A DNA stretch of 64,000 bases, from NCBI RefSeq assembly GCF_002305895.1, contig NZ_CP022203.1, forward strand, positions 1,466,501 through 1,530,500. The letters run 5' to 3'. Each line of letters opens with the position of its first letter. The stretch's first letter is position 1. A program made the position numbers and the translations under genes. The notes under the pieces were generated by a model. The model saw only the letters and a list, made by a program, of their open reading frames with translations. It was not told where the DNA came from and made no database searches. Shown here piece after piece: positions 9,909 to 20,186 of this stretch. This DNA comes from Corallococcus macrosporus DSM 14697. Lineage in GTDB: Bacteria; Myxococcota; Myxococcia; Myxococcales; Myxococcaceae.

Positions 9909-9954
9909 AGTGCTGAGAATCCTCCAGAGCCACGCTTTGCCTCCCGAGGACCTC

Positions 9955-11118
9955 ATGCCTTCCACGACCGACAGCGGCAGACCTCCCGCGCAGTCTCGCG
10001 TTCCCCGTCCACCCGCGACTCCGGACGCACCCCAGCCCCTCTTTACGGTGGGCGGCGTCCGTTATGAGGCCGTGCGTGAGTTGGTGCGGATGCCAACGGG
10101 CGAGGTGCTCCTTCAAGCGCTCCGATACGCGCTGGAAGAGGAGGTGCCGGGGCGGTGCCTCGTGCGGCGTCTGCCCAGCCCTTCTACCTACGAGGAGCGC
10201 AAACGGCTCTCGGATGAAATTCAATTGGCCTTCCGGCTCAATCACCCCGGAATCGCCCAGGTCTTCCACCTGAAGATTCACCGGAACACGCCTCACGTCG
10301 TCATGGAGTACGTGGAAGGGCCCTCGCTGGACACGCTCGTGAGCGCGGGCATGGCCCGGGGCAGGCCCGTGTCCGAGGCGTTGGCCCTCTACATCGGCGC
10401 GGAAATCGCCGATGCCCTGCACTACGCCCACACATTGCGCGGCGAGGATGGCAGGCCGCTGGGCATCATCCACCGCGACGTCAACCCCCGGCACCTCTAC
10501 CTGGGGGCGCACGGCGGGGTGAAGCTGGCCAACTTCGGGGCGGCCTACTCTCTCATGGTGGGGCGGCTGGAGTCCCCCGCCAATCTCGTCCGAGGCGACG
10601 TGGCCTACGCCTCCCCTGAGTACCTGGAGCGACTGCCGCTGTCCCCGGCCTCCGACATCTTCAGCCTGGGCGTGGTGCTCGTGGAGCTGCTGACGGGGAA
10701 GCACCTCTTCGACGTGGAGGACGTGCCGTCGCCCCCCGAGGGGCTGAGCTCGCTGCGGGCCGAGCAGTTCACGTCCCTTCCGCTCACGCAGATGCGCGTG
10801 CTGCTCTCCAGTTTCAGTCCGGCGGAGGTCGAGGCCGCGGTGGCGGGGCTGTCTCCGGATGTGAAGGCCCTTCTCCATTCAGCGCTACGCATCGTCCCGG
10901 ATGAGCGCTTCGCGACGGCGGCGGACATGGGAGGCGTTCTGCGCGCGGCCCTGACGAAGCGGTACCCGTCCTATGGGCGGCAGGATGCCCGGCAAGAGGT
11001 CGCCCGCGTCATCGCGGAGGGGAGCTGCCTCCGTGACGTGGTGGAGTTCGGTGAGGCGGGCCTGTACCCGGAGGGATTGGACGCGCACGAACTCGGCGCG
11101 CTCGGGGAAGAAGATTAG
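9955..11118 (+). CDS. Degenerate Ser/Thr protein kinase (probable pseudokinase)
   Basis: A 387-aa soluble protein with a Hanks-type kinase fold at about residues 30-300. Key catalytic residues are changed. There is no Gly-rich loop at about 44-52 (MPTGEV). The beta-3 strand reads CLVRRL with Arg71 where the ATP-anchoring Lys is expected. HRD (173-175) is kept, but the catalytic-loop Asn is His180 (HRDVNPRH), and DFG has become NFG (193-195). ATP-dependent phosphotransfer is therefore doubtful and a scaffolding or sensing role is more likely. APE is kept as SPEY. The ATG at 9955 has GAGGA just upstream; a GTG at 9910 is the alternative. The gene converges on the XRE regulator gene with a 4-bp overlap of the stops. 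Confidence 0.85.
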   Translation: MPSTTDSGRPPAQSRVPRPPATPDAPQPLFTVGGVRYEAVRELVRMPTGEVLLQALRYALEEEVPGRCLVRRLPSPSTYEERKRLSDEIQLAFRLNHPGIAQVFHLKIHRNTPHVVMEYVEGPSLDTLVSAGMARGRPVSEALALYIGAEIADALHYAHTLRGEDGRPLGIIHRDVNPRHLYLGAHGGVKLANFGAAYSLMVGRLESPANLVRGDVAYASPEYLERLPLSPASDIFSLGVVLVELLTGKHLFDVEDVPSPPEGLSSLRAEQFTSLPLTQMRVLLSSFSPAEVEAAVAGLSPDVKALLHSALRIVPDERFATAADMGGVLRAALTKRYPSYGRQDARQEVARVIAEGSCLRDVVEFGEAGLYPEGLDAHELGALGEED

Positions 11119-11474
11119 CGAGTCAGGGCGTCGGCGACGTGGAGGAGCGCATCCAGCTTCTCCGCGTCCAACTTCCGCGCGAGGGCGAGCAGCCGGCGCA
11201 GCTCGGCCGTCTCGGCATCCAGGAGCGGCGCGCGCGAGGGCTTCTTCGCCGTCCCCTGGGGTGCCGTGCCAAGCAGGACTTCGGGGGAGAGGCCCAGGGT
11301 CAGGCTGAGGCGGTGGAGGACGGTGACGCTGGGCAGCACCTTCCCTCGCTCCATTCGACGGTAGGCGGGCTCCACCAGGCCCACGCGTTCGGCCACCTCG
11401 GCCCGAGTCATCCCCAACTTCTCCCGTGCTTCACGAGCGGCGGTGCCGATGGTGATTGCCAGTTCTTCATTCAT
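11115..11474 (-). CDS. XRE-family helix-turn-helix transcriptional regulator
   Basis: A 119-aa DNA-binding protein. Residues about 9-64 form a Cro/C1-type HTH: IGTAAREAREKLGMTRAEVAERVG, then YRRMERGKVLPSVTVLHRLSLTLGLSPEVLL. The C-terminal 45 residues (DAETAELRRLLALARKLD) are helical and probably mediate dimerisation. Its stop overlaps the stop of the kinase-like gene by 4 bp. It is divergent from the active kinase gene, with 369 bp between. Palindromic TGGAC/GTCCA elements lie in both flanking control regions and are candidate operators for this protein; this is inference from position and symmetry. Confidence 0.88.
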   Translation of the reverse strand: MNEELAITIGTAAREAREKLGMTRAEVAERVGLVEPAYRRMERGKVLPSVTVLHRLSLTLGLSPEVLLGTAPQGTAKKPSRAPLLDAETAELRRLLALARKLDAEKLDALLHVADALTR

Positions 11475-11843
11475 GGAGCGTCCCAGCGGAGAGGAGGCCG
11501 AGCGCCGCTCGGCCCCGAGCCGCGTCCAACCGCCGCGCGCGGTGGAAGTGGCGGGCGGGCGGTTCTGTGTGGCGAGACATGGCGCCGGTGTATCTCAGCA
11601 ACGGGTTGGGCTCCGCGTCCAGCACCACGCGGCGCGGATGCCCCTGTGCGGCCGTTCGCATGCCTTCTTCGTAGCTGACGTGAATGCTGGACGTCCAGGG
11701 TCTGGTGCTGGATGCCAGACGTTCAGCGACATGAGGCGGCAGGCGAAGGGAACTCCCCGCCGGGTCGCATCTTGGGTAGGTTGCGCGCCCGATTGGGAGG
11801 GCGTCCTCATGACCGAGGGCCGGAAAGCCAGGAGAAGGGCGCC
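11475..11843. other. 369-bp divergent intergenic region (XRE / kinase)
   Basis: I find no convincing gene here; the frames that cross it are short and lack family features. It must hold both divergent promoters. The only clear structure is the palindromic cluster at 11687-11726, described separately. Confidence 0.5.
11687..11726. promoter_or_regulatory. Palindrome cluster upstream of the Ser/Thr kinase gene
   Basis: Contains the perfect 12-bp palindrome CTGGACGTCCAG (11687-11698), the inverted repeat CTGG-ATG-CCAG (11708-11718) and AGACGTTCAG (11717-11726), which repeats GGACGTCCAG (11689-11698) with two mismatches at a 28-bp shift. The TGGAC/GTCCA arms are shared with the sites at 9866-9908. 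It is a candidate operator for the adjacent XRE regulator, about 120 bp before the kinase start. Confidence 0.45.
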
Positions 11844-13682
11844 ATGAGGGTGAGGGAGCCTGCCCTCGCGGAGCTTTCTCCCGGAGCCCAGGTGATGGGC
11901 TACACGGTGGAGCGCCGGTTGGGCAGTGGCGGCTTCGGGGCCGTGTATCTCGCGCGGTGCGAGGGGCGGGCCTATGCGCTCAAGTTGTTGGACCTGGCGC
12001 GCGTGGGCGGGCGGGTGGAGCGCGAAGTCTCCATCCTGCTGAAGCTGGACCACCCCAACGTGGTGGGCATTCACGGCTTCGGGGTGTGGCCGGTGGCGTC
12101 CCCTACGCTCGGCGTCATCGTCATGGAGTACGTGGAAGGGCGGCAGTTGGACGTCTGGGCGTCCGAGGAGAACCCCTCTGCGCGGCAGGTGGCGCGCGTG
12201 GTGCTGGACGTGGCGCGGGCGCTGGAGGCTTCCCACGAGGCGGGAGTGCTTCACCGCGACGTGAAGGAGCTCAACGTCATGGTGCGCGCCTCGGATGGCG
12301 TGGCCAAGCTGGTGGACTTCGGTGTCGGGGACTACGCGGGGGCACCCGGAATCACAGTGGACATCCTCCCGCCAGGGACACCCGAGTACCGCTCCCCGGA
12401 GGCGTGGAGCTTCTTCCGGCGGAACGCCCGCGTGCCAAGGGCCTTCTTCACACCGGGCGCCTCGGACGACCTGTGGGCGCTGGGCGTGGTCCTCTACCGG
12501 CTCTTGACGGCGCGCCCGCCCTTTCCGACCGACCACTTCATGTTGGCGGATGCCGTCATCGCGAACGAGGCGCTTCCTCCGTGTCAGGTGAATGACCGGG
12601 TGCCCGTGGCGCTCAGCGAGGTGTGCATGGCGCTGCTGGCGAAGACGCCGGCCTCGCGGACGCCGAGCGCGGGGGCGCTTCGTGTAGCGCTGGAGGCGCT
12701 CCTTCAAGGAGCGGACGCGGCCTGGGACGTTCCGCTGTGCGACGCCTACGGCGAGGACACGGCGACGACGGAAGGGGGGATGGACAGTCACGAGCAGTGG
12801 CTGAACGAACCGCTGCGCCGGCCCCGGCGTGGGAAGCGGCCGAAGCGGGAGCTGCCGCCCCTGTGGGAGGGACCGGCTCTGCTGATGGAAGCGGAGGCCG
12901 CTGCGGCACGGACGCCAAGGCCCGTGCGCAGCTCCCGAGGCTGGCGCATGGGGGCCATGGCGTTGCTCGTGGGGTGCGTCTCAGCGGGGCTGGTGTGGGG
13001 CTGGCGCACGCCACGCGTCGCGGTGCCTGCGCCGACCCGTCAGGAAGTAGCGCGGCCTGGGAGTTCGTCCCAAGCTGTCCGCGCCGCAGCTCTCCCCTCT
13101 GGCGCGGAGTCCACCCCTGCGGCCGTCGCTGCCCCTGCGATGCTGCCCGAGGCCACACCCGTGAAGATGGAGAAGACCGAGAGCCCGACGCCACCGAAGC
13201 CCGCCAGGAAGGGCGCTGGCGCCATGCGAAGGCCGATTGTCGCCGCTGCGGCCTGTATGGGGTTGGCGTGCCCTGGCGCGCAGGTGCGCCCACCGCCTCC
13301 CCCTGAGCCGTGTCCTGAGCGCGCTGTCGAGGTGATGGAGAGGTTGGGCGTCAAGGTGGGAGACCACTGGGGCGTGACCTTTCTGGTCGACCATCCGCAG
13401 GTCATCAAGGTGACCGATGGCCCGGCGGAGCTGCGGCTGCTCGCTGATTGGAACCGCATGCCGGACGGCACGCTCTTCTCCGGGAGACTCATCGTGAGTG
13501 ACCGGGTCTACGGGCGGTTCACCCATGCGCGCACCCGTGATGGGAAGCGCTTCCCCGTTTGCTTGGAGCTGGAATCCGAGTCCCTGGTGAAGGGCCTGGC
13601 GAGAGAGCCAGGGGATGACAGCCCCGCGTCGGCGCGCGTCTTCACGACTGGGGACGTGAGAGCGGTGGATGCGTTTGATTGA
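11844..13682 (+). CDS. Transmembrane Ser/Thr protein kinase with extra C-terminal module
   Basis: A 612-aa protein with an apparently active Hanks-type kinase at residues 20-290: Gly-loop GSGGFG (27-32), Lys47 in YALKLL, Glu61, catalytic loop HRDVKELN (137-144), DFG (158-160) and SPE in the activation segment. A Lys/Arg-rich juxtamembrane stretch (325-337) precedes one transmembrane helix at about 368-387, then a Pro/Ala-rich linker. From residue 461 the chain contains a signal-peptide-like segment (MRRPIVAAAACMGLACPGA) followed by about 120 residues with mixed alpha/beta character. The ATG at 11844 has AGGAGAAGGG upstream (11830-11839) and is preferred over the longer frame from 11712. The kinase domain should be cytoplasmic and the C-terminus outside. 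The DUF2381 gene follows 35 bp downstream, so the two are likely co-transcribed. Confidence 0.9.
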   Translation: MRVREPALAELSPGAQVMGYTVERRLGSGGFGAVYLARCEGRAYALKLLDLARVGGRVEREVSILLKLDHPNVVGIHGFGVWPVASPTLGVIVMEYVEGRQLDVWASEENPSARQVARVVLDVARALEASHEAGVLHRDVKELNVMVRASDGVAKLVDFGVGDYAGAPGITVDILPPGTPEYRSPEAWSFFRRNARVPRAFFTPGASDDLWALGVVLYRLLTARPPFPTDHFMLADAVIANEALPPCQVNDRVPVALSEVCMALLAKTPASRTPSAGALRVALEALLQGADAAWDVPLCDAYGEDTATTEGGMDSHEQWLNEPLRRPRRGKRPKRELPPLWEGPALLMEAEAAAARTPRPVRSSRGWRMGAMALLVGCVSAGLVWGWRTPRVAVPAPTRQEVARPGSSSQAVRAAALPSGAESTPAAVAAPAMLPEATPVKMEKTESPTPPKPARKGAGAMRRPIVAAAACMGLACPGAQVRPPPPPEPCPERAVEVMERLGVKVGDHWGVTFLVDHPQVIKVTDGPAELRLLADWNRMPDGTLFSGRLIVSDRVYGRFTHARTRDGKRFPVCLELESESLVKGLAREPGDDSPASARVFTTGDVRAVDAFD

Positions 13683-13717
13683 TGCGGCGCGGTGCCGCAT
13701 GAGGGAGTCGCGGACGG

Positions 13718-14629
13718 ATGCGTGCAACATCACCGGTCATTCTCCTCCTGGTCGCGCTCGTGGCGGAGGGGGCCCAGGCTCAGGGAGCCCTGGCGTCGGG
13801 GAGCGGCGCTCGGCGCATTGAGCTGGGGCCAGATGATTCCGGGGCACTGACAGAGATCGCGGTCAGCCCCGGCTTGTCCACCGTGATTCTCTTCGATTCA
13901 GAACTGGCTCAAGACGGGGTCGCCGTGGAGGGGAGCAGCAGCTTCTCGAATGTCGACATCGGCCGCACGACGATGCGGTTGGTTCCCTCGGGGCGGGGGC
14001 AGCCTGGGGAGAAGTTCCGAATGTCGGTGCGGTTCCGCGACGGCGCGGCACCTCCTGGCGCGTCGTTCCTGCTGACAATTCATCCCGCACGCGCGGACAG
14101 CGTCGTCGAGGTGTATCGGAACGCGAGGACCGTGGAGTCGTACCAGCAGGAGGCGCGGGAGGCGCGCTCCGAGACGCTGCGCTGCATGGAAGAAAACGCG
14201 CGCCTGGTGGCGGAGCGTGGTGCCCCGGGGGGGCTGGCCGGACTGCTTGCGACAGGCGGCGTCGATGCGAACGGTGTGGCTGGCTGGAGCGTGACCAACA
14301 CGGTTGCCTCAGACCCGAGGAACGCCCTCAAGCCTTTCAGGGTCCAGAGCTACCGCGCGAAGGCCCGCGTCGCGCTTGAAGTCTTACTGCATGACCTGCG
14401 GGGAGAACGGCCGTGGGTTGTCAGTGGCGCCACGCTTCGCGGTTCTCCAGGAACCGAGCTGAAAGTGCTCAATGTCTGGCAGTCATCGCCCATCACATCG
14501 GGCCAGACTGCCAGGGTGGTTGTCGAAGCGGAAGCGCCGGCCGAATCAGCACGCGGTGCATTCTCACTCAAGCTGTGGGAGGCCGACGGCCCCCGGACGG
14601 TCACGATTGGCAACGTGACGTTCCCCTGA
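13718..14629 (+). CDS. DUF2381 (TIGR02268) family exported protein
   Basis: A 303-aa protein with a Sec signal peptide (MRATSPVILLLVALVAEGAQA). The body fits the Myxococcus paralogous family TIGR02268/DUF2381: ARRIELGPDDSG near the N-terminus, ELAQDGVAVEG, RMSVRFRDGAAP with beta-rich spacing, then a charged helical stretch (about residues 125-160) and a C-terminal beta-domain ending in TVTIGNVTFP. No function is established for the family; its members in myxobacteria are often next to Ser/Thr kinase genes, as here. It sits 35 bp after the kinase stop and 130 bp before the first toxin gene, so it could belong to either unit. Periplasmic location is expected. Confidence 0.82.
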   Translation: MRATSPVILLLVALVAEGAQAQGALASGSGARRIELGPDDSGALTEIAVSPGLSTVILFDSELAQDGVAVEGSSSFSNVDIGRTTMRLVPSGRGQPGEKFRMSVRFRDGAAPPGASFLLTIHPARADSVVEVYRNARTVESYQQEAREARSETLRCMEENARLVAERGAPGGLAGLLATGGVDANGVAGWSVTNTVASDPRNALKPFRVQSYRAKARVALEVLLHDLRGERPWVVSGATLRGSPGTELKVLNVWQSSPITSGQTARVVVEAEAPAESARGAFSLKLWEADGPRTVTIGNVTFP

Positions 14630-14759
14630 ATCGCCAGGTGGGAGCGTCTGCGTCATGGCGTCAGGCTTTGCCAGTGCAGCGGTTCACCTGAAAGTGTCAG
14701 GCATGTGTGCCAGGGTTTCCGCCGCTTGCCTTTCCATGAGGGAGGCGCGGGGGTGAGGA

Positions 14760-16316
14760 ATGCGTGCTGGCCATTGGGTGGTGGGAGTCGCCCTGCTTCT
14801 CACGGGCTGCGCCGGGGTTGAGTCGTCGACTCGCAGGGAGACGTTCCATCAGCGCGCGGCGCTTCCGGGGGAGCGGTGGACCGCTTCGGGCGAGGACGCC
14901 GAGTACGAGCCCGAGGCCGAAGCGGCGGAAGGCGCGTCCAGGCAACCGCTTCACCGGCGCCACCTGTTCCGGGACGGGATGCTCCTGGGAGGGGCGCGCG
15001 GGCAGGAGGACGAATTCGACGTCCTGCTTCGCAACGCGGGACTCGAAGCACGGGACGCGCGGCCTGTTGCGGGCAACCCACTCACTCCGAAGCACGCGGC
15101 GCGACTCCTCCAAGCGTTGATGGGGAGGGACGTGACGCTGGGCCAGTTCCCTGCGCGGCTCGCGGTGGGCTTCCTGCTGCGGGAGGTGCTGGCGACGGGG
15201 GAGGTGTCGCGGGCCGAGTTGGTGCGCCGGGTGGAGCGCTTCAGGCACCTGGCGGTGCTGCGGCCAGACGGGCGGCTTGCGTGGGTGCGCAGCGGACGGA
15301 CGCAGCAGCGGGTGGCGGACGTCGGGTGGAAGGACGGAGCCTTCCGCGCCCATGGCTTCGAGTTGGGGCGCTTCTACGACGGGCGGACGGGTGTCTTCCG
15401 GCTGCTGAATGATGAGCTGCGGGAGGAGAGCGGCTTCCCGCTGGCGGACGTCCACGATGATGCGGACGTCGTCAGCCGCACGCTGGACGGGGCGGAGGAG
15501 GCCTTCGTCGGGCTGGCCCTCGCGGTGGGGAAGTTCTTCTCGACGTCTCCGGCGGACAACCTCGAGGCACTTCGGGAGATGCCCGCCGCCGTGGTGGCGT
15601 TGCTGAAGTCGTCTCCCGAGTACCTGGAGCGCTTCCGGTACATGACGCGGGGCGAGCAGGTACAAGCCGTCTCCAAGCTGGTGACGAACCTCATCGCCAC
15701 CTGGGGGACGGCGTCGGCCGCGACGCGTACGTTGGAGGGGACGGCGCTCGCCACGGCGGAAGTGCCCGCGCTCGTCTTGTCCGCCCAGGGCACCGTCGCG
15801 ATGCGACTTGTGGCGGCGCCGGTGGGGCGCGCGGCGGCGGTGCTGAGCGGCGGGCCTGGGGCGGCCATCATTCTTCAGCGGGCGGGCACCGCCGCGAAGG
15901 ACGGCGCACCGTCGAAGGGGCCCGGCCAGTGGGGGCCGGCGAAGGAGTCCATGTCCCCACGGGCCCGGCGCTACCAGGAACAAATCGCGGGACATTCAGC
16001 GGACGAGGCATACTGGGTCGGAGGCGTCGGCAGGGACAGGGGAGGCGTGAAGTTCGATGGGTTCGATGCAGGGGTGCTGCTGGAGGCGAAGGGGCCGGGC
16101 TATGCCAGGTTCTTCGAAGAACTCGACCCGAAACGCTGGTTCAAAAACTCGGGGGCGAAGGCTCTTGGCGAACAGGCGCTCCGACAGGTGAAGGCGGCCA
16201 AAGGGATGCCCATTCGTTGGCACGTAGCAGAGGAAACCGCTGTCCCTGCACTTCGGAAGCTACTTCAGGACAGAGGAATTAAAGGGATCGAGGTTGTTTT
16301 CACACCTCCCCTTTGA
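14760..16316 (+). CDS. Lipoprotein toxin with Tox-REase-5-like nuclease C-terminus (copy 1)
   Basis: A 518-aa lipoprotein. The type II signal is clear: MRAGHWVVGVALLLTGC, with Cys17 as the lipid-attachment residue. Residues 18-389 are a conserved carrier region of unknown fold, with a hydrophobic Ala/Gly-rich segment at about 325-375. The C-terminal tip (about 390-518) carries the Tox-REase-5 signature VKFDGFDAGVLLEAKGPGY, giving a PD-(D/E)xK-type set of Asp433, Glu442 and Lys444. It is therefore a predicted DNase-like toxin. An Imm52-like gene follows after 13 nt. A lipid-anchored nuclease with a conserved carrier and variable tip resembles the SitA toxins transferred between myxobacterial cells by TraA/TraB outer-membrane exchange; membership in a named Sit family is not shown here. 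GAGGGAGG in the leader is the likely ribosome-site region. Confidence 0.85.
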   Translation: MRAGHWVVGVALLLTGCAGVESSTRRETFHQRAALPGERWTASGEDAEYEPEAEAAEGASRQPLHRRHLFRDGMLLGGARGQEDEFDVLLRNAGLEARDARPVAGNPLTPKHAARLLQALMGRDVTLGQFPARLAVGFLLREVLATGEVSRAELVRRVERFRHLAVLRPDGRLAWVRSGRTQQRVADVGWKDGAFRAHGFELGRFYDGRTGVFRLLNDELREESGFPLADVHDDADVVSRTLDGAEEAFVGLALAVGKFFSTSPADNLEALREMPAAVVALLKSSPEYLERFRYMTRGEQVQAVSKLVTNLIATWGTASAATRTLEGTALATAEVPALVLSAQGTVAMRLVAAPVGRAAAVLSGGPGAAIILQRAGTAAKDGAPSKGPGQWGPAKESMSPRARRYQEQIAGHSADEAYWVGGVGRDRGGVKFDGFDAGVLLEAKGPGYARFFEELDPKRWFKNSGAKALGEQALRQVKAAKGMPIRWHVAEETAVPALRKLLQDRGIKGIEVVFTPPL

Positions 16317-16329
16317 TGAGGAGACGAGA

Positions 16330-17052
16330 GTGGTGGAGACTTACTATGCCGCTGCATACTGGCGCGCGCGCAAGGAATCATCGGATGAATGCGCATCTCG
16401 CGTGGTGGCCTTGCTCGAATCTATCGCTGGAGTTGAGGCGTCGTTCGCTAGCTGGTTCAGGCAGAGCAAGGCGCGAAAGGACGCTTGGAAAAAGCCGGTC
16501 ACGCCCAATCAGGCTGAACTCGCAAAGGCGCTGGAGCGCACCAAGGATCGGCATCATGAAGATCTTGGTTATCGAATAGGCGGATGGAACGGCGCCTCTG
16601 AAGATTCCGACGCATGCAGTTTTGATGCAGCCGTGGGCATCTACTCCGAATGGGTTAACAACTTCTGGCTCTTTGAGCTGCCCATTCACGGTGCAAGTGC
16701 TGAACGCGTCTTGACGGCACGAGTTTTAAGCGGGCTTCTTAGGAGCATGGCGACAGCATTAGACCCTGATTGGGGTGTTGCCATGTCTCATGCACATCGG
16801 GAAATTGCCGACTCAACCGGACGGGCAAATGTCCAGATTGGGTGGGTGACGTACCTCGCGCGTCATCGGGGCACGGTGCCGCCGCTTCCTGCCCCCGTGC
16901 GCATCGAGCAGGTAGAGGACAAGGGCACCCTCATCGTTCTCACACCCGAGCGCTTCACGGCGGACAACCCGGAGCATGTGGCGCTGGCTGAGCGGGTGCG
17001 GGAGCTGCTGGACCGGGCCGGGCTCTTGAAGCCGCTCCAGGCCAAACCATAG
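16330..17052 (+). CDS. Imm52-like immunity protein (copy 1)
   Basis: A 240-aa cytoplasmic protein that should neutralise the toxin encoded 13 nt upstream. The N-terminus VETYYAAAYWRARKES and the following ECASRVVALLESIAGVEASFASWF, then GWNGASED, fit Imm52. I chose GTG 16330 because it aligns exactly with the ATG of the paralogue at 18709 and has GAGGAG at 16318-16323. A longer frame from a TTG at 16294 would overlap the toxin stop. About the last 65 residues (from VPPLPAPVRIEQV) are almost identical to those of the paralogue, while the remainder is strongly divergent. The divergent part has lower GC than its surroundings, pointing to transfer or exchange. Confidence 0.82.
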   Translation: MVETYYAAAYWRARKESSDECASRVVALLESIAGVEASFASWFRQSKARKDAWKKPVTPNQAELAKALERTKDRHHEDLGYRIGGWNGASEDSDACSFDAAVGIYSEWVNNFWLFELPIHGASAERVLTARVLSGLLRSMATALDPDWGVAMSHAHREIADSTGRANVQIGWVTYLARHRGTVPPLPAPVRIEQVEDKGTLIVLTPERFTADNPEHVALAERVRELLDRAGLLKPLQAKP

Positions 17053-17161
17053 GAGCGGATGAGGAGGCTCGGCATCCCTGGATGGATGCTTGGACGTGTC
17101 AGGCGCGCGTGCCAGGATTTCCACCGATTGCCTTTCCCTGAGGGAGGCGCGGGGGTGAGGA

Positions 17162-18694
17162 ATGCGTGCTGGCCATTGGGTGGTGGGTGTCGCCCTGCTT
17201 CTCACGGGCTGCGCCGGGGTTGAGTCGTCGACTCGCAGGGAGACGCTCCATCAGCGCGCGGCGCTTCCGGGGGAGCGGTGGACCGCTTCGGGCGAGGACG
17301 CCGAGTACGAGCCCGAGGCCGAAGCGGCGGAAGGCGCGTCCAGGCAACCGCTTCACCGGCGCCACCTGTTCCGGGACGGGATGCTCCTGGGAGGGGCGCG
17401 CGGGCAGGAGGATGAATTCGACGTCCTGCTTCGCAACGCGGGCCTGGAAGCACGGGACGCGCGGCCTGTCGCGGGCAACCCACTCACTCCGAAGCACGCG
17501 GCGCGACTCCTCCAAGCGTTGATGGGGAGGGACGTGACGCTGGGCCAGTTCCCGGCGCGGCTCGCGGTGGGCTTCATGCTGCGGGAGGTGCTGGCGACGG
17601 GGGAGGTGTCGCGGGCCGAGTTGGCGCGCCGGGTGGAGCGCTTCAGGTACGTGGCGGTGCTGCGGCCAGACGGGCGGCTTGCGTGGGTGCGCAGCGGACG
17701 GACGCAGCAGCGGGTGGCGGACGTCGGGTGGAAGGACGGAGCCTTCCGCGCCCATGGCTTCGAGTTGGGGCGCTTCTACGACGGGCGGACGGGAGTCTTC
17801 CGGCTGCTGGACGATGAGCTGCGGGAGGAGAGCGGCTTCCCGCTGGCGGACGTGCATGATGATGCGGACGTCGTCAGCCGCACGCTGGACGGGGCGGAGG
17901 AGGCCTTCGTCGGGCTGGCCCTCGCGGTGGGGAAGTTCTTCTCGACGTCGCCAGCGGAGAGCCTCGCGGCGCTGAGGGAGCTGCCGGCCGGGGTGGTGGC
18001 GCTGTTGAGGTCGTCCCCCGAGTACCTGGAGCGCTTCGGGTACATGACCCGGGGTGAGCAGGTGCAGGCCGTCTCGAAGCTGGTGACGAACCTCATCGCC
18101 ACCTGGGGGACGGCGTCGGCCGCGACGCGTACGTTGGAGGGGACGGCGCTCGCCACGGCGGAAGTGCCCGCGCTCGTCTTGTCCGCCCAGGGCACCGTCG
18201 CGATGCGACTTGTGGCGGCGCCGGTGGGGCGCGCGGCGGCGGTGCTGAGCGGCGGGCCTGGGGCGGCCATCATCCTTCAGCGGGCTGACACCGCTGCGAA
18301 GGACGGCGCACCGTCGAAGGGGCCCGGGCGCTGGCGGCCTGCCAAGGAGCACATGGAGGAACCTGCCCGAAGGTATCAGGCCCAGGTCGCTTCAGCGCCC
18401 GAGGGACAGGTTTACGAGATCGACAACGTGAAGTTCGATGGGTTCAACGGTGCCTCGTTGCTAGAGGCAAAAGGTCCAGGCTATGAGAAGTTTCTTGGGC
18501 AGGGTGTGGAGCAAGGAGGATGGTTCGAGGGGTTCATGGGCATGGTCAAACAAGCGAGGAGCCAACAACGTGTTTCCCGTGGGTTCCCCATTGAGTGGCA
18601 CTGTGCGGAGAGCCGGGTCGCGGACTATGTGCGAGTTCTCTTCAGGCGAAACGGCTTGGGAAGAATCTCAGTCATCCACACGCCGCCGAACTGA
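17162..18694 (+). CDS. Lipoprotein toxin with Tox-REase-5-like nuclease C-terminus (copy 2)
   Basis: A 510-aa paralogue of the toxin at 14760. By manual alignment, 375 of the first 389 residues are identical, and seven of the 14 changes cluster at residues 266-293. The lipobox and Cys17 are the same. The tip (about 390-510) has the same nuclease signature in a different sequence context: NVKFDGFNGASLLEAKGPGY with Asp425, Glu434 and Lys436, then an unrelated-looking helical stretch (VEQGGWFEGFMGMVKQARS) and FPIEWHCAE. The ending HTPPN parallels FTPPL of copy 1. The shared nuclease class with a divergent tip suggests a toxin of the same activity but different immunity specificity. The immunity gene starts 14 nt after the stop. 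Confidence 0.85.
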   Translation: MRAGHWVVGVALLLTGCAGVESSTRRETLHQRAALPGERWTASGEDAEYEPEAEAAEGASRQPLHRRHLFRDGMLLGGARGQEDEFDVLLRNAGLEARDARPVAGNPLTPKHAARLLQALMGRDVTLGQFPARLAVGFMLREVLATGEVSRAELARRVERFRYVAVLRPDGRLAWVRSGRTQQRVADVGWKDGAFRAHGFELGRFYDGRTGVFRLLDDELREESGFPLADVHDDADVVSRTLDGAEEAFVGLALAVGKFFSTSPAESLAALRELPAGVVALLRSSPEYLERFGYMTRGEQVQAVSKLVTNLIATWGTASAATRTLEGTALATAEVPALVLSAQGTVAMRLVAAPVGRAAAVLSGGPGAAIILQRADTAAKDGAPSKGPGRWRPAKEHMEEPARRYQAQVASAPEGQVYEIDNVKFDGFNGASLLEAKGPGYEKFLGQGVEQGGWFEGFMGMVKQARSQQRVSRGFPIEWHCAESRVADYVRVLFRRNGLGRISVIHTPPN

Positions 18695-18708
18695 GTAGGG
18701 GCTAGGGA

Positions 18709-19422
18709 ATGGTCGACAGCTACTATTCTGGCGTGTATTGGCCTGGACGACCTGAGTCGCTAGAGGCCTACTCCCGGCGAGCCGAGCTTTTTTTTCGGAA
18801 CCTGTCTGCCGTGGATCAAAGCCTTGCAAGATGGTTTGAACAGGCTGCTTCTCGGGATGCTGCCCTCAAAACCGAATTCTTGCCGAGTGCCGAGACCTTC
18901 CTTGGCTTGTTTGCGAAGAAGAAGTATCGAATCGGGGATGGTGAGATCTTCTTCGCGGCGTGGAATGGAGAGTCCAGCGCGAGTAGTGTGGTCAACTTTT
19001 CTTGTGGCTCTCCATCGCCTCAGACAGTGGACCTCTGCGTGTGGGCCCCTCCGTCAATCGGGGATGTCGCGGGGCGACTCTTGTCTGCGCCCATGCTCAC
19101 GCAAGTGATGCGCGCGATGGTGCTGGCATGGGAACCTGAGTGGGGGGTCTTTACGTCTGACCGTCATCGCGACGCCGTATCCGAGTTCGCGGACACCGGC
19201 ACGTTCGTGGGATGGGGGACATACCTTTCGCGGAATCGGGGCGTAGTGCCCCCGCTTCCTGCCCCCGTTCGCATCGAGCAGGTAAAGGACAAGGGCACCC
19301 TCATCGTTCTCACGCCCGAGCGCTTCACAGTCGGCAACCCGGAGCATGTGGCGCTGGCTGAGCGGGTGCGGGAGCTGTTGGACCGGGCCGGACTCTTGAA
19401 GCCGCTCCAGGCCCAGCCGTAG
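18709..19422 (+). CDS. Imm52-like immunity protein (copy 2)
   Basis: A 237-aa protein, the presumed antidote to toxin copy 2. It begins MVDSYYSGVYWPGRPES, followed by SRRAELFFRNLSAVDQSLARWFEQA and AAWNGESSAS, matching the Imm52 pattern seen in copy 1. The central region differs strongly from copy 1, but from VPPLPAPVRIEQV the last 65 or so residues are nearly identical (for example TLIVLTPERFTVGNPEHVALAERV). Base use in the 5' two thirds is unusual for this genome, with an 8-T run at about 18788 and several A/T-ending codons, which supports recent acquisition of the variable part. Confidence 0.82.
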   Translation: MVDSYYSGVYWPGRPESLEAYSRRAELFFRNLSAVDQSLARWFEQAASRDAALKTEFLPSAETFLGLFAKKKYRIGDGEIFFAAWNGESSASSVVNFSCGSPSPQTVDLCVWAPPSIGDVAGRLLSAPMLTQVMRAMVLAWEPEWGVFTSDRHRDAVSEFADTGTFVGWGTYLSRNRGVVPPLPAPVRIEQVKDKGTLIVLTPERFTVGNPEHVALAERVRELLDRAGLLKPLQAQP

Positions 19423-19484: not shown

Positions 19485-20186
19485 TCACTCCAGGCTGAAG
19501 GCGCGCGCCAGCGTCAGCATCTCCACCTGGACGGCGCCCGCTTCACGCAGGGCCGAGGCCGCCGCCCTCGCGGTGGCGCCGGTGGTGAACACGTCGTCCA
19601 CCAGCAGCACACGTTGTCCGGAGACACGGGACGACGCGGCGAAGGCCCCGTCGACGTTGCTCGCCCGGTCCGCTTCGCTCAGCCCCACCTGCCGCTGTGT
19701 CTCGCGGTGTCGCGTCAGCAGGCCCACCGGCGCCTGCCGCCCCGTGGCCTTCGCCAGCGCGCCCGCCAGCAGTTGAGCCTGGTCGTACTTGCGCGCGTGA
19801 TAGCGGCGCTTGTGCAGCGGCAACGCGACCACCAGCCCCGGCGCGCGGCTGAGGAAGCTGTGCGCCTCGCCCGCCAGCAGCTCCCCCAGCGGCCCCGCGA
19901 GGTTGGGGTGGTCTTCGTACTTGAAGCGGTGGATGGCGCGCGCCAGGGGCCCTTCGTGCGCGAAGGGCGCCCAGGCGCGGGTGAAGGGCGGCGGCGAGGC
20001 GCGGCACCGGGGGCAGGTGTCCCCGGGAAAGGCGCCGGGCTCCGCGCAGGTGCGGCAACACGCGGGTGGCAGCCGCTCCAGCGCGGTGTCGCACGTCTCG
20101 CAGAAGAAGCCCTCGGGGCCCGGCAGCACCTTCGTGCACGCCAGGCACGAAGGCGGATAGAGCAAATCCAGCAGCGCCTTCAGCAC
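19485..20186 (-). CDS. comF: ComF family phosphoribosyltransferase-like protein
   Basis: A 233-aa cytosolic protein. The N-terminal third has paired cysteines suited to zinc binding (Cys14/Cys17, Cys29/Cys32, Cys44/Cys47, Cys58/Cys61). The C-terminal part is a type I phosphoribosyltransferase fold with the PRPP loop VLLVDDVFTTGAT and the usual ALPLHKRRYHARKYDQA motif. In naturally competent bacteria ComF is needed for DNA uptake, probably at the step of internalised single-stranded DNA, but many carriers are not known to be competent. The start appears to be a GTG at 20186, and the gene begins 20 bp after the stop of gpmI, so they are probably co-transcribed. Confidence 0.92.
   Translation of the reverse strand: MLKALLDLLYPPSCLACTKVLPGPEGFFCETCDTALERLPPACCRTCAEPGAFPGDTCPRCRASPPPFTRAWAPFAHEGPLARAIHRFKYEDHPNLAGPLGELLAGEAHSFLSRAPGLVVALPLHKRRYHARKYDQAQLLAGALAKATGRQAPVGLLTRHRETQRQVGLSEADRASNVDGAFAASSRVSGQRVLLVDDVFTTGATARAAASALREAGAVQVEMLTLARAFSLE

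Follow-up and report, generated by a model that had tools for sequence, protein, structure and literature searches.

The closest described relatives of the locus analysed here belong to the SitA3 family, including SitA3-Mx (MXAN_1899) of Myxococcus xanthus and SitA3-Mf1 (PMC8546572, PMC5562445). Like the toxins described below, these are lipoproteins in which an escort domain of ~385-400 residues precedes a swappable nuclease tip, with the immunity gene directly downstream and traAB in the host. SitA3-Mx, the escort domain of which was trimmed at residues 1-399, ends in a CdiA_C tip (PF18451), and SitA3-Mf1 carries a Tox-REase-5 tip (PF15648), the same family as here (PMC8546572). Published SitA3 escort domains can share as little as 51.8% identity, the sitB1 gene overlaps sitA1 by 11 bp (PMC5562445), published sit loci can also be without sitB, and sitAI loci have often been found on prophages. 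The Tox-REase-5 nuclease fold and the Imm52 fold are also those of TseT-TsiT from Pseudomonas aeruginosa (PA3907-PA3908; PDB 7dym and 9oz0), but that pair is delivered by type VI secretion (T6SS), shows ~20-23% sequence identity to ours and has no SitA3 escort domain. Other Tox-REase-5 toxins cut DNA, and the one from Burkholderia gladioli cuts both DNA and RNA (PMC9990079). The AHH/Imm11 homologues of M. xanthus (PMC12077131) offer a looser parallel, with several homologous pairs per genome and a part in self/non-self discrimination that our locus would share, but they belong to other nuclease and immunity families and are T6SS-delivered. MXAN_0049/0050, which we considered as a Tox-REase-5/Imm52 case, is such an AHH/Imm11 pair and was rejected as unrelated.

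The window, that is, the whole 64,000-nt stretch of DNA analysed, comes from a soil Myxococcus with a genome of 8.97 Mb in one contig. It contains two sitA3-like toxin genes, each with an Imm52 gene, in tandem at 14760-17052 and 17162-19422 (Table 1). Our reading, to which we assign a probability of about 0.88, is that this array is a tandem duplication of a SitA3 sitAI cassette, encoding two TraAB-delivered Tox-REase-5 toxins with their Imm52 partners, in which one copy has been remade by cassette exchange. The SitA3 class, Tox-REase-5 on a SitA3 carrier and the association with prophages are all already published, and the array is a known kind of system since SitA3-Mf1 already carries Tox-REase-5 and the host has traA-traB. 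It departs from published SitA3 loci in having two tandem units with two Tox-REase-5 subtypes, and no sitB lies next to it.

Table 1. Features of the tandem array and of the block that precedes it (positions in the window).
Feature	Position	Strand	Remarks
Ser/Thr kinase	9910-11118	+	neighbouring block 9910..14629
HTH	11115-11474	-	neighbouring block 9910..14629
Ser/Thr kinase	11712-13682	+	neighbouring block 9910..14629
DUF2381/TIGR02268	13718-14629	+	neighbouring block 9910..14629
Unit 1 leader	14689..14759	+	repeat family D1; recurs ahead of unit 2, spacing 2402
Unit 1 sitA3-like toxin	14760..16316	+	518 aa; lipobox Cys17, escort ~1-385, Tox-REase-5 tip ~390-518; D433, E442, K444
Unit 1 Imm52 immunity gene	16330..17052	+	GTG start, 240 aa; ~16330-16840 variable, 16840-17052 conserved 3' homology arm
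Unit 2 leader	17091..17161	+	repeat family D1 copy
Unit 2 sitA3-like toxin	17162..18694	+	510 aa; other Tox-REase-5 subtype from ~18300-18380; D426, E435, K437
Putative exchanged cassette, unit 2	18300..19240	+	tip + 5' two thirds of immunity gene; from DNA identity
Unit 2 Imm52 immunity gene	18709..19422	+	237 aa
comF, intact	19485..20186	-	array sits on comF 3' side

The open reading frames, the gaps between toxin stop and immunity start (13 nt in unit 1 and 14 nt in unit 2) and the Pfam matches confirm the two tandem pairs of lipoprotein toxin and immunity protein that an earlier note had described. The 2402-bp period proposed there holds for the toxin part, from start to start, but not for the immunity 3' ends, which repeat at 2370. 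Its block start, 14694, moves slightly, to ~14689, and identity between the units is strongly uneven along the duplicated block. A scan across the array found no sigma-70 promoter, and terminator-like sites within it are near chance level. The idea that unit 2 is a decaying copy was rejected because both of its open reading frames are intact, the catalytic residues are kept and the escort domain is constrained. Between the two units, this domain shows a dN of 0.018 and a dS of 0.098, values that are consistent with constraint on both copies. The tandem arrangement recurs, since further sitA3 arrays exist in Corallococcus and in one Myxococcaceae MAG (L048, L049 and L052).

In both toxins the lipobox reads LTGC, its Cys is residue 17, and Ala and Ser occupy positions +2 and +7. 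In both, the residues flanking this cysteine satisfy the published criterion for outer-membrane lipoproteins, which is no Lys at +2 and no Ala at +7 (PMC5562445), and both are predicted lipoproteins. The lipobox is kept in 39 of 42 relatives. In a SitA3-like protein of Myxococcus vastator (L044, 1645-3243), its Cys is replaced by Tyr (ATGY), which may be an error in this draft genome. The escort domains of the two units are 96% identical, which strongly supports the shared carrier region and single delivery class proposed earlier, and the tips are 41% identical. In Pfam and NCBIfam, the sole domain above cut-off in the toxins is a C-terminal Tox-REase-5 (PF15648), scoring 59.3 bits (5.8e-16) in unit 1 and 45.1 bits (1.5e-11) in unit 2, where the curated Pfam cut-off is 25 bits for this family as for Imm52. 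The nuclease signature D..ExK (VKFDG...LLEAKG) is present in both tips; among 47 related units, the D and K are found in all 47 and the E in 44. The lipobox cysteine, the signature in each tip and the Tox-REase-5-like C-termini, as the earlier note had them, are thus all borne out, and the agreement of D..ExK, Pfam and lipobox in both units is, judged from sequence, far beyond chance. Searching plasmid records with the tip gave only distant matches, in Streptomyces and Rhizobium, and no convincing solved homologue of the tip emerged from sequence searches.

Structural information came from AlphaFold2 models built on alignments of relatives, of which we interpret those of the unit 1 tip and the unit 1 immunity protein. 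The tip (residues 385-518) models as the TseT nuclease fold, matching the TseT toxin domain with Z scores of 15.6 (9oz0_B) and 15.0 (7dym_A) and superposing on it with an rmsd of 2.1 Å over 125 residues; the next-best fold match has a Z of 5.4. Both downstream proteins are Imm52-like as claimed, with Pfam matches (PF15579) of 263 bits (2.7e-78) for unit 1 and 278 bits (1.1e-82) for unit 2, both above cut-off, and the unit 1 model, with a pLDDT of 93, matches TsiT at Z 20-22, with 22.4 for 9oz0_A and 22.3 for 7dym_B. For the whole toxin the model has a pLDDT of 59 and it was the tip alone that gave fold matches; the escort domain being poorly modeled, the mechanism of entry is unreadable from it, and we claim no fold for that domain.

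The carrier is widespread and bears different tips. Its escort domain (the first ~385 residues) occurs in all 27 Myxococcus genomes searched, as well as in Corallococcus and Pyxidicoccus, and is joined to at least four types of tip: two Tox-REase-5 subtypes, an HNH-like one (KEWHHIVEQ) and CdiA_C. Variable tips on one carrier are thus found between relatives, the comparison being between species. The CdiA_C-tipped protein, from genome G022, has an escort domain 60% identical to ours over residues 84-384, and an upstream gene, called sitB-like from its position and overlap alone, overlaps its gene by 11 bp. Because of this match, we have filed the array as SitA3, the CdiA_C-tipped look-alike serving as a proxy for MXAN_1899. 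The proposal of a SitA-type polymorphic lipoprotein toxin is thereby supported, with SitA3 as the more exact family name. Many relatives, one paralogue in the host genome among them, have a sitB-like gene immediately upstream.

Elsewhere in the host, traA and traB are present (L164; TraA 1279-3426, TraB from 3423) and overlap by 4 bp, as published. TraB was recognized by its OmpA domain and TraA by its Cys repeats (TIGR04201); TraA was not among the matches of a MYXO-CTERM search of the genome, and it was the search with the Cys-repeat family that found it. The escort domain occurs at five sites in this genome, namely both array units and positions 3369548, 7573464 and 8640785, where the tips are Tox-REase-5, HNH-like and Tox-REase-5 with a sitB-like gene, respectively. 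There are likewise five Imm52 genes, of which the fifth, near 1291410 (L019 of the host, G000), lies next to pieces of a sitB-like gene and of a tip. Like this fifth copy, an Imm52 gene near comF in another genome (L101, G007) is without an intact sitA3 partner, and from such genes it appears that immunity may persist after toxin loss.

A comparison of the two units at the DNA level reveals a mosaic. The escort domain is 95-100% identical along most of its length but only 80-93% at 15531-15710. Identity then drops to ~30-60% in the C terminus of the tip and the initial two thirds of the immunity gene, before rising again to 82-95% in the last 210 nt of that gene. Correspondingly, the immunity proteins are 28% identical in their first two thirds (N-part) and 89% in the last third (C-part). 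The unit 2 cassette is 77-92% identical to DNA from two other Myxococcus species (L029 and L030), to which the escort-domain DNA of unit 2 is mostly less similar (50-83%, with one window at 88-91%). Across 47 units, tip identity follows that of the immunity N-part (Spearman 0.62, Mantel p 0.001), whereas the escort domain does not (-0.02). The N- and C-parts of the immunity protein are uncorrelated as well (0.00), and the escort domain goes with the C-part (0.34, p 0.001); since these correlations use related sequences, their p values are guides only. The tip tracks the immunity N-part and the escort domain does not, and therefore the exchange cassette would end inside the immunity gene; sliding windows place the breakpoints at toxin residues ~385-395 and immunity residues ~145-170. 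We give roughly even odds to the general model in which Imm52 consists of two parts with separate histories: the N-terminal two thirds travel with the tip and the C-terminal third stays behind as a homology arm. SitA3 loci would then switch kin type through paired crossovers, one in the escort 3' end and one in the last third of the immunity gene, and with a tandem array a lineage could acquire a further pair without losing the one it had.

In principle, the same mosaic could result if the two copies of a duplicated operon had simply diverged, under relaxed or diversifying selection in the tip and immunity gene. A duplicated pair can indeed diverge at its interface, and functional constraint would preserve identity at the catalytic residues and at the 3' end of the immunity gene, but divergence fits poorly with a unit 2 cassette that resembles other species while most of its flanking escort domain resembles unit 1, with the sharp changes in identity at both cassette ends, or with the absence of correlation between escort domain and immunity N-part, and we regard it as very improbable. 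Still less credible is the view that these toxins are injected on contact, by T6SS or otherwise, as TseT is, and not passed on by outer-membrane exchange. That the tip and the immunity protein both have their nearest solved relatives in a T6SS pair speaks for injection; against it, no PAAR or comparable secretion domain was found in the N-terminal region of the toxins (Pfam, NCBIfam), where there is instead a lipobox conserved in nearly all relatives, and the same carrier bears other nuclease tips, among them CdiA_C of the SitA3 type.

Whether the array carries two identity labels is a separate matter, as one Imm52 might protect against both toxins, in which case the second unit would add dosage and no second label. 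Both toxins belong to one nuclease family and the immunity proteins are 47% identical over their whole length, at a level where cross-protection has been reported for AHH/Imm11 pairs of Myxococcus (46%; PMC12077181). However, identity is only 28% in the part of the immunity protein that tracks the tip and 41% in the tips, and in the two other species the unit 2 tip is still paired with its own type of immunity protein (tip ~92%, immunity 81%). We consider such redundancy unlikely, and the two units would probably differ in immunity specificity.

The locus is variable between species, since the orthologous locus L094 has a single unit and sitA3 is absent from comF in most of the remaining Myxococcus genomes. 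In several species sitA3 adjoins comF, on either side. L094 also lacks the kinase/HTH/DUF2381 block, which in the same assembly lies upstream of another sitA3, with an HNH-like tip (L021). That assembly (G013; BNCN01 contigs, including L020, L021 and L042) is labeled Comamonas sp. KCTC 72670 but falls in the genus of the window by genome search, and is probably mislabeled. Whole or in part, the block is found upstream of sitA3 in L021, L027, L092, L093, L026 and L043, and it may accompany sitA3 as a regulatory or a mobile element; DUF2381 has 18 matches in the 8.97 Mb of the host. Four other Myxococcus genomes have a comF that is interrupted at the same codon (~90, IHRFKY): L097 (G023), L106 (G009), L117/L130-L132 (G008) and L119 (G002). 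In three of these, 39-43 kb of a single contig separate the two halves; in G002 they lie on separate contigs. The insert in G008 is a prophage, with matches to integrase, portal, terminase, major head, tail, DNA polymerase and endolysin, an integrase lies beside the comF 3' half in G023, and sitB-sitA3-Imm52 lies beside the 5' half in three of the four. A literature search on Myxococcus prophage integration at comF found no paper.

How the array would work follows from published SitA work, from which we take lipidation, outer-membrane location, TraAB transfer, cytoplasmic entry, nuclease activity, killing and kin discrimination. The lipoproteins would sit in the outer membrane and reach TraA-compatible neighbors through TraAB-mediated outer-membrane exchange, after which the tip would be brought into the cytoplasm by the escort domain and would cut nucleic acid there. 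As each toxin would poison cells without the matching Imm52, the array would amount to two entries in the identity barcode of the strain. Most likely, a single resident unit was duplicated first. One of the copies would then have received a new tip and a new 5' two thirds of its immunity gene by homologous recombination, the crossovers falling within the 3' end of the escort domain on one side and the conserved last third of the immunity gene on the other.

Which myxobacteria are socially compatible depends on their SitA loci. The array gives a testable picture of how a new specificity might be installed without death of the host, by duplication and then a swap between homology arms, and it makes cross-immunity between sister pairs of one nuclease class directly testable in a single strain.
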